From Candidatus Poribacteria bacterium (GTDB lineage: Bacteria; Poribacteria; WGA-4E; WGA-3G): a stretch of DNA of 33,409 nucleotides. The notes under the pieces were generated by a model. That model did not search any database. It saw only the letters and a list, made by a program, of their open reading frames with translations, and was not told where the DNA came from. The position numbers and the translations under genes are program-made. The stretch is taken from the NCBI GenBank assembly GCA_009839975.1, contig VXOP01000074.1:1-33409 (forward strand), given 5' to 3'. This document shows, in pieces, positions 12,649 through 15,081 of this stretch; position 1 is the first letter of the stretch, and every line of letters begins with the position of its first letter.

Positions 12649-12677
12649 TTGCATACAGCTAAGAAACGTGTTATAAT
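12649..12677 (+). promoter_or_regulatory. Strong promoter of rpsB-tsf
   Basis: TTGCAT, 17-nt spacer, perfect TATAAT. The predicted start is near 12684, giving rpsB an untranslated leader of about 137 nt. Confidence 0.78.
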
Positions 12678-12701
12678 TACTATGACTTTATGAAAGAAAC
12701 A

Positions 12702-12815
12702 CACCTCCAGATCTGCACGGCGGGTTCTCTCAAAATGTGAGTCTGTTGCAGATGTGAAGGAGGTGGATGCCCAAACCCAATAATGAGCATTAAGTCTCAT
12801 ACAAACCCAGGAGGT
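12702..12815 (+). promoter_or_regulatory. Structured rpsB leader with alternative anti-Shine-Dalgarno pairing
   Basis: CACCTCC (12702-12708) pairs perfectly with GGAGGTG (12759-12765). Inside this, ATCTGCA (12711-12717) pairs with TGCAGAT (12747-12753), across a small internal loop, and a weaker CTCTCA/TGTGAG stem lies further in. The same ACCTCC could instead pair with GGAGGT at 12810-12815, which is the rpsB ribosome binding site. Two exclusive folds are therefore possible, one leaving the start open and one closing it. Leaders of ribosomal-protein operons often mediate feedback by the encoded protein, here S2. This is a sequence-based proposal and does not match an RNA family I can name. 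Confidence 0.55.
12767..12793 (+). other. Possible 8-codon upstream ORF in the rpsB leader
   Basis: ATG CCC AAA ... TAA encodes MPKPNNEH. It starts 3 nt after the GGAGG of the leader stem, which is closer than ideal spacing. If translated, ribosomes would disrupt the stem at 12702-12765. It is too short for coding evidence. Confidence 0.25.
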
Positions 12816-12820
12816 AATTT

Positions 12821-13720
12821 TTGCCAGTTACAATGAAAGAGCTCCTTGAATGTGGAGTTCATTTTGGACATCAAACCCGACGCTGGAACCCAAAGATGGC
12901 AGAATACATCTTTGCGGAGCGAAACGGTATATACATTATTGATTTACAGAAGACACTGAGAATGTTGGAAACTGCAGTAGAGTTCGTACAAACCGTTGCT
13001 GCACAAGGCGGTTCAGTGCTTTTTGTGGGAACAAAACGACAGTCACAGGAAGCGGTGTTAGAAGAAGCAATGCGTTGTAGTATGTTCTATGTCAATCACC
13101 GATGGTTAGGAGGTATGTTAACCAACTTTCAAACGATTAGACAAAGCATCAGTAAATTAGAGGAACTTGAAGCTGAAGAAGAGAGCGGTGAACTGGAAAA
13201 GCGACCGAAAAAAGAGATTATACGTTTGATGCGAGAGAAAGGGAAGTTGGCAAATAACCTGACAGGTATCAAAGAGATGTCAATCCTCCCTGCTGTTGTT
13301 ATAGTTACAGACACCCGCAAAGAACACACGGCTATTGCAGAAGCGAACAAACTCGGTATTCCAATCATCGCGATAGTAGATACGAATTGTGATCCCGACC
13401 CAATTGATTTACCCATCCCAGGGAACGATGACGCTATCCGGTCAATTCGGCTTATATGTTCTGTTCTTGCTGAAGCTGTTATTGAAGGACGTGGTGATGC
13501 AGTTGAAGGTGCGGAAGTTGAAGCAGAAGATGGAAAGTCTGCCGAGAACCAATTAGATAAGGTTGCTGAAGTGGAACGCCATGAACAGCAGACTGCACAG
13601 ATTCTGGATGTTGAACAACTTTCTGCTGAACCAGAGACGATCGGTGATGGAGAACAACGTCAGACGCGTCAACAACGTCCGAAGAAAAGACCTGGACGAC
13701 CACGACGCTCCTCACAGTAA
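12821..13720 (+). CDS. rpsB: 30S ribosomal protein S2 with C-terminal extension
   Basis: S2 binds the 30S subunit between head and body and is needed for S1 recruitment. The start is TTG at 12821, 6 nt after GGAGG. The next ATG (12833) would be 18 nt away and would remove the usual residues before [22 protein letters not shown]. Other S2 hallmarks are [44 protein letters not shown] and [11 protein letters not shown]. The fold ends at about residue 226. A tail of roughly 70 residues follows, first acidic ([12 protein letters not shown]), then basic and ending [14 protein letters not shown]. tsf follows after 112 nt, as is usual. Confidence 0.97.
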
Positions 13721-13832: not shown

Positions 13833-14426
13833 ATGGCAATTACAGCAAAGATGGTCAGTGAACTGCGTTCGCGCACGGGAGCAGGGATTATGGACTGCAA
13901 ACAGGCATTGACTGAAACGGAAGGAGATGTTGATGCTGCAATTAAAAAACTTCGTGAGCAAGGTTTAAAAGCTTCTGAAGTAAAAGGCGGACGGGCAACT
14001 GAAGAGGGACTTATTATCTCATATATACATCCAGGAAACCGAGTCGGCACAATGGTGGAATTAAACTGCGAAACTGACTTCGTCGCAAGAACAGAACAAT
14101 TCCAAAAATTAGCAACAGAGATTGCTATGCAAGTCGCTGCTGCAAAACCAAGATACGTCAAAGAGGATGATGTCCCCGCAGAAGAACTTGATGCAGAAAA
14201 AACAATATTGAAGACTCAAGCTCTACAGGAAGGAAAACCTGACCATATTGTTGATAAAATTGTTCAAGGACGGCTTTCTAAATTCTATTCGGAAGCATGT
14301 CTGCTAAAACAACCGTATATTCGCGATGCCGATAAAACGATTGAAGATCTCGTCAAGGATGCAATTGCACAGCTTGGTGAGAATATCGTAGTTAAACGGT
14401 TTGTGCTTTATGTCCTCGGGCAGTAA
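13833..14426 (+). CDS. tsf: Elongation factor Ts, short form
   Basis: EF-Ts is the guanine nucleotide exchange factor for EF-Tu. The start at 13833 is preferred over the tracker start at 13794 because GGAGGAAAG lies just upstream and MAITAKMVSELR is the usual N-terminus. Signatures are RTGAGIMDCKQAL in the UBA-like N-terminal domain and VELNCETDFVAR in the core. At 197 aa it is the short one-core form, as in Thermus, rather than the roughly 280-aa E. coli form. It sits between rpsB and frr. The gene commonly next to it, pyrH, is missing. Confidence 0.96.
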   Translation: MAITAKMVSELRSRTGAGIMDCKQALTETEGDVDAAIKKLREQGLKASEVKGGRATEEGLIISYIHPGNRVGTMVELNCETDFVARTEQFQKLATEIAMQVAAAKPRYVKEDDVPAEELDAEKTILKTQALQEGKPDHIVDKIVQGRLSKFYSEACLLKQPYIRDADKTIEDLVKDAIAQLGENIVVKRFVLYVLGQ

Positions 14427-14493
14427 AGTCTAATCTGGATGCGACACCTTACATCGGAATCAGCGAATACAGAAACAAAGAAAGGGAATTCAG

Positions 14494-15081
14494 ATGCAAG
14501 AAGTACTGAAAGATGCTGAATCACGAATGAAGAAATCGGTCGAATCAACAGCAAATAAACTCTCACATGTACAGACAGGACGCGCGACAACTGCGTTGTT
14601 AGACCAAGTGACAGTAAACTATTACGGCAGCAAAACACCTTTGAATCAAGTTGGAACGATCACAACTCCCGAACCGCATCAACTCGTCATTCAACCTTGG
14701 GACAAGACATTGATTACAGAAATCGAAAAAGCAATTGCTCAATCTGATTTAGGACTCGCAACAAGTAATGATGGAAGTATTATTCGCATCCAAGTACCAG
14801 AGTTGACAACCGAACGTAGAGTTGAACTTACCAAACTCGTTAAGAAATTAGCCGAAGAAGGTCGAGTTGCCATAAGAAACATACGCAGGGACGCTAACGA
14901 TGCTATTAAGAAACTTGAAGGTGGCGATGCAAGCTCAGGTAGCAGAAGAAGCAAAGGTAGAGGTGGGGATAAAAAATCTGGCCGTACCGATGCTGATCCT
15001 GTACAGAACCTAACGGATACTTATGTCAACAAAATCAATGATTTAGCCGATACCAAAGAAGCTGAACTTTTAGAGAAATAA
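14494..15081 (+). CDS. frr: Ribosome recycling factor with altered loop
   Basis: RRF splits post-termination ribosomes together with EF-G. The protein is 195 aa against about 185 usually. Core motifs are HVQTGRATTALLDQVTVNYYG, TPLNQVGTITTPEP, IQPWDKTLITEIEKAI and VRNIRRDAND-type AIRNIRRDANDAIK. Between about residues 148 and 170 the usual charged helix is replaced by a Gly/Ser/Lys/Arg-rich segment (GGDASSGSRRSKGRGGDKKSG). The terminal helix LTDTYVNKINDLADTKEAE then resumes. It begins 67 nt after tsf and ends 2 nt before the cdsA ATG. Confidence 0.95.
   Translation: MQEVLKDAESRMKKSVESTANKLSHVQTGRATTALLDQVTVNYYGSKTPLNQVGTITTPEPHQLVIQPWDKTLITEIEKAIAQSDLGLATSNDGSIIRIQVPELTTERRVELTKLVKKLAEEGRVAIRNIRRDANDAIKKLEGGDASSGSRRSKGRGGDKKSGRTDADPVQNLTDTYVNKINDLADTKEAELLEK

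Follow-up and report, generated by a model that had tools for sequence, protein, structure and literature searches.

What RNA precedes rpsB in this member of the Poribacteria, and how might it govern the genes behind it? The window, i.e. the whole 33,409-nucleotide stretch of contig VXOP01000074.1 that was analysed, carries ACCTCC at 12703-12708 and GGAGGT at 12759-12764 and again at 12810-12815. A first-pass annotation, made from the letters alone, had read these as one anti-Shine-Dalgarno sequence with two exclusive partners in a possibly new family of ribosomal leader. We conclude instead that the window leader is very probably a poribacterial form of the rpsB-motif (S2) leader already described, under autogenous control by S2.

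Genomic context

The promoter, ribosome-binding site and genes that frame the leader are as follows.

12649..12677, plus strand: promoter predicted from sequence; TTGCAT, 17-nt spacer, TATAAT (extended -10 TGtTATAAT, 12669-12677)
12809..12815, plus strand: rpsB Shine-Dalgarno (SD) sequence AGGAGGT, conserved in the family alignment
12821..13720, plus strand: rpsB, ribosomal protein S2, TTG start (TIGR01011, 356.5 bits)
13833..14426, plus strand: tsf, elongation factor Ts, second gene of the operon (TIGR00116, 196.7 bits)

The second GGAGGT is the SD of rpsB, as the first-pass annotation had it; the gene starts with TTG at 12821, as it does in 58 of 58 family members. The same start codon (12821-12823) is found in most other poribacterial families and is unusually constant for a weak one. 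Every one of the 18 genomes in the genus keeps the promoter pattern TTGCAT-N17-TRTAAT, which ends 24-46 nt short of the first stem (P1) of the leader; the predicted transcript start, near 12684, precedes the entire element. Downstream, frr follows tsf directly (14426-14494), without the pyrH that many bacteria have between them. The window's genome also codes for a multi-domain protein of S1 type.

Fold of the leader and its conservation

We compared the regions upstream of rpsB in 58 genomes from the window's family and in the other families of the phylum. The family alignment comprises 57 leaders (56 distinct sequences) and contains invariant blocks; the leader is conserved in all 58 family members having rpsB. 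The following parts were delimited (R1 and R2 are covariance models described below).

12697..12779, plus strand: core rpsB-motif (S2 leader) RNA (R1, which was trained on the window leader among others, 97.6 bits; R2, 59.8 bits, E 3e-14)
12702..12708, plus strand: 5' strand of P1a, containing ACCTCC, partner 12759-12765 (paired in 99.7% of cells; compensatory changes at two pairs)
12711..12720, plus strand: 5' strand of P1b/P1c, partner 12743-12753 with 12746 bulged (98.2% of cells paired)
12722..12726, plus strand: junction strand GGGUU, 5' half of the pseudoknot (invariant in the family; covaries phylum-wide and beyond)
12727..12741, plus strand: hairpin P3, P2 being absent (paired in 98.9% of the relatives' cells; the window has a single U-U mismatch)
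12743..12765, plus strand: 3' strand of P1 by alignment and predicted fold, including GGAGGTG at 12759-12765, an SD-like sequence that is part of P1a
12774..12778, plus strand: AACCC, 3' half of the pseudoknot, just 3' of P1 (able to pair with GGGUU in all 56 distinct sequences)
12783..12800, plus strand: hairpin P4 between pseudoknot and SD, AUGAG/CUCAU in the window (7 of 8 pairs with compensatory changes in the family)
12804..12808, plus strand: second AACCC adjoining the SD in the window's genus, a possible alternative pseudoknot partner

The core lies 41 nt upstream of the rpsB start, and at the equivalent place in relatives. P1 is a long two-part stem (12702-12765) whose 17 pairs, over P1a, P1b and P1c, are formed in 98-99.7% of cells. 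Its outer stem (12702-12708/12759-12765) has 7 bp, as does the inner one (12711-12717/12747-12753; AUCUGCA/UGCAGAU), so that the ACCTCC/GGAGGT pairing and the second 7-bp stem noticed in the first reading are both present; the predicted pairing probability of P1 is 0.97-0.98, falling to 0.79-0.80 at the innermost pairs. The pseudoknot (12722-12726/12774-12778) and the hairpins P3 and P4 had escaped that reading. Compensatory changes in P1a run from C-G to U-A, and across phyla (47 leaders) the matched P1a pairing was better than all 3000 permutations. Taken by itself, the leader folds more stably than its shuffled versions (z = -2.13); on the other side, the unconstrained minimum-energy fold, in which pseudoknots are disallowed, takes part of the GGG into P1. 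Given the compensatory changes in P1 and the presence of the whole element upstream of rpsB across phyla, the observation stands beyond chance.

The pseudoknot is invariant within the window's family, and its covariation support comes from other families only. Both covariance models were built without it, and it can thus be tested separately. Its strands were read by hand from 26 leaders, drawn from 17 poribacterial genomes of ten families, E. coli and 8 Firmicutes. The partners change together: GGGUU/AACCC, AGGUU/AACCU, UGGGU/ACCCA, CGGGU/ACCCG, GCGGU/ACCGC, GGGGU/ACCCC and UAGU/ACUA. The mean duplex energy of the true pairs was -7.04, as compared to -5.82 +/- 0.29 for permuted pairs, and none of 5000 permutations was as good.

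Membership of the rpsB motif

The published rpsB motif consists of P1, an optional P2, P3 and a pseudoknot between J2-3 and a 3' extension, located before rpsB (Meyer 2009, PMC2704228); its known hosts are Alpha-, Gamma- and other Proteobacteria, Cyanobacteria and Firmicutes (PMC2704228). In E. coli the leader mediates autogenous repression by S2 (PMC10931766, PMC2704228), and S1 helps S2 to repress rpsB-tsf (PMC10931766). The window leader shows the structural traits of this motif: it lies in the 5' UTR of rpsB, it has a long P1, P1 is capped by a junction carrying P3 (the optional P2 is absent), and it has the pseudoknot. A further mark of membership is recognition by a model of other members, which was obtained with R2.

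Two reciprocal covariance models were used. Of 85 genomes of the phylum, 73 had a match at E <= 0.1 to R1, the model built from poribacterial leaders, although some few matches were off target. R1 was then searched in 64 non-poribacterial sources (63 rpsB loci and the E. coli region), where all 18 matches with E < 0.05 were on the sense strand immediately before rpsB; one is the rpsB leader of E. coli (E 2.8e-5), and the other 17 are leaders of Clostridia type, among them that of Thermobrachium celere (E 9e-9). R2 was built from these 18 non-poribacterial leaders only. Its sole significant match in the 4.8-Mb genome was 12697-12779 of the window, the next match scoring 15.4 bits, and it recovered 39 of 45 other poribacterial loci. 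The training set of R2 was chosen and aligned with R1, and the two models are to that extent not fully independent; the position before rpsB was not imposed by R1. The idea that the leader might found a new family thus gives way: the leader shares the architecture of the described motif, and a model of E. coli and Clostridia leaders retrieves it.

The Rfam model t44 (RF00127; curated cut-off 44 bits) matched nothing in the window at E <= 10, nothing in the window's genome and nothing above the cut-off in relatives, and a search of the window against Rfam at gathering and permissive thresholds returned nothing relevant. The t44 model appears narrow, since it exceeded its cut-off only once among 14 control genomes, and the leader is unannotated because t44 does not reach it. 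Our literature search found no earlier report of ribosomal leaders in Poribacteria. What is new here is the host phylum and, in the window's family, the covarying hairpin P4, which separates the pseudoknot from the SD.

Like the motif of Meyer 2009, the window leader combines a position before rpsB, a long P1 with an internal loop, P3, and a pseudoknot of five pairs linking the junction to the 3' extension; P2 is absent, as in Firmicutes and Cyanobacteria members. It differs in its host, Poribacteria being missing from the published list, in its junction (GGGUUC in the window's family, GGGUGC in the published motif) and in the extra hairpin before the SD. With the E. coli rpsB-tsf leader (t44) it shares ACACAC before P1, GUGGA-G after P1 and the order of parts; the E. 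coli pseudoknot GGGGU/ACCCC is the counterpart of GGGUU/AACCC. The E. coli P1a (ACGUAUC), in contrast, is unlike that of the window, its leader is without P4, and its spacer to the start codon is 23 nt rather than 41. Clostridia leaders (Thermobrachium celere, Carboxydothermus islandicus, Thermincola) have the same layout of P1, P3 and pseudoknot directly before rpsB, but often just three to four pseudoknot pairs (AACC) and a shorter distance to the SD.

The ribosome-binding site region and variant leaders

With compensatory changes in all but one of its pairs, P4 has been selected as structure, not sequence. It is absent in sister families f2-f8, in which 14-26 nt separate the motif from the start codon (except in the degraded leader L189); in families f9 and f10 a hairpin again stands between pseudoknot and start codon.

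Within the rpsB coding region, CTCCTT (Leu codons CTC CTT, 12842-12847) is complementary to the SD, and can also pair with GGAGTT a few codons on. Together with the second AACCC, it raises the possibility of an added local switch at the ribosome-binding site in the window's family, in which the SD would pair with the coding CTCCTT, or GGGUU would move to the second AACCC. The two codons are kept in 57 of 58 and 52 of 58 genomes, above the 27-73% observed at 16 other Leu sites, and the second AACCC abuts the SD in the window's genus. However, the first codons of tsf also show raised synonymous conservation (a weaker 5' effect), CTCCTT is lost in many sister families, and neither CTCCTT:SD nor GGGUU with the distal AACCC (12804-12808) covaries; relatives often carry AACTT or AACAT at the latter place. 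An alternative pseudoknot with the distal AACCC was rejected, being wobble-only or broken in many relatives. We regard such a switch as rather unlikely. The same low expectation attaches to the suggestion that the S2 leader of the window's family has gained an output device of its own, formed by the covarying P4 between two AACC strands, beside an SD that can pair with CTCCTT; if it did exist, an S2-dependent choice of partner for pseudoknot or SD would account for silencing of the ribosome-binding site by S2 bound at a distance upstream.

Several leaders elsewhere in the phylum depart from the common form. Those of genus g2 (L057, 49-282, minus strand; L059) carry insertions: the P3 loop of G002 is enlarged by about 60 nt, and G001 and G002 both have an additional hairpin (ATAGGCGTGC...GCGCGCTAT) immediately ahead of the SD. 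In L177 (G084:C1:2229660-2229900) unrelated sequence stands in place of the 5' strand of P1, and the pseudoknot has decayed; the genome is otherwise complete, and the leader looks as though it had been disrupted by an insertion. No motif was recognisable upstream of rpsB in L187 (G069), L192 (G077) or L196 (G075), from the deep families f5 and f7.

Other readings of the leader

The conserved fold could instead serve as a stability or translation-enhancer element, for example as a landing site for S1 or the 30S subunit, and not be bound by S2. S1 favours pseudoknots (PMC10931766), and binding of S2 in Poribacteria is itself argued by analogy. Against this, the E. coli motif mediates S2-dependent repression (PMC10931766; PMC2704228), and 18 of 18 confident non-poribacterial matches precede rpsB; such a role, as stability element or enhancer, is improbable.

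A still lower likelihood falls to the two-partner switch proposed at first, in which ACCUCC (12703-12708) would pair either with GGAGGU at 12759-12764 or with the rpsB SD at 12810-12815, the choice being made by S2 or by ribosomes. The letters fit, and 99% of family cells can form the second pairing, wobbles included. However, that this pairing can be written in most family members follows mainly from a fixed SD and a pyrimidine-rich P1a. The alignment of relatives, which bears out the P1 stems through compensatory changes, holds no double change between anti-SD and SD in 56 distinct leaders; where P1a changed from C-G to U-A, its P1 partner followed and the SD stayed. The matched energy was no better than permuted (2638 of 3000 permutations were as good over 47 leaders; 162 of 3000 in Poribacteria alone), and in the window the pairing has a probability of <= 0.003 and comes out 4-9 kcal/mol worse before the pseudoknot is even taken into account. 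It is unavailable to E. coli and many Clostridia. Finally, by keeping P1 closed S2 would leave the SD free, which runs counter to repression. We consider this switch very improbable.

Control of the downstream fold by translation of the short ORF is scarcely credible: the 8-aa ORF MPKPNNEH (12767-12793) does begin at 12767, after the first GGAGGT, as had been noted, but that GGAGGT is 2 nt from the ATG and buried in P1, ATG occurs in 12 of 58 relatives (ACG in 41), and the peptides range from 1 to >30 aa, unrelated in length and without a common sequence. An intrinsic terminator was looked for in the leader and none was found, which makes transcription attenuation unlikely.

Proposed regulation and its meaning

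Of the original claim that the rpsB leader is controlled by the operon's own product, the structured leader is observed, and autogenous control by S2 is its most likely function by analogy with E. coli. We infer that S2 binding and repression, with S1 as a helper, carry over from E. coli to the Poribacteria. The proposed order of events is as follows: the rpsB-tsf mRNA would start near 12684 and fold into P1-P3 and the pseudoknot, in which GGGUU of the P1/P3 junction pairs with the post-P1 strand AACCC. S2 in excess over 16S rRNA, possibly together with S1, would then bind this fold of P1, P3 and pseudoknot, and the bound fold would block initiation at the downstream rpsB SD. Expression of tsf would be shut down as well, by coupling or by loss of the mRNA. 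As an outcome, the output of S2 and EF-Ts would track ribosome demand.

The P1/pseudoknot core is common to E. coli, Clostridia and Poribacteria, though Rfam leaves it unannotated here. The insertion of P4 provides natural variants for an open question (PMC10931766), namely by what route S2, bound a long way upstream, silences the ribosome-binding site of rpsB, and P4 is the part that a specialist might take up. Our reading extends the S2 autogenous leader, as a very probable assignment, to a phylum of uncultured sponge symbionts.
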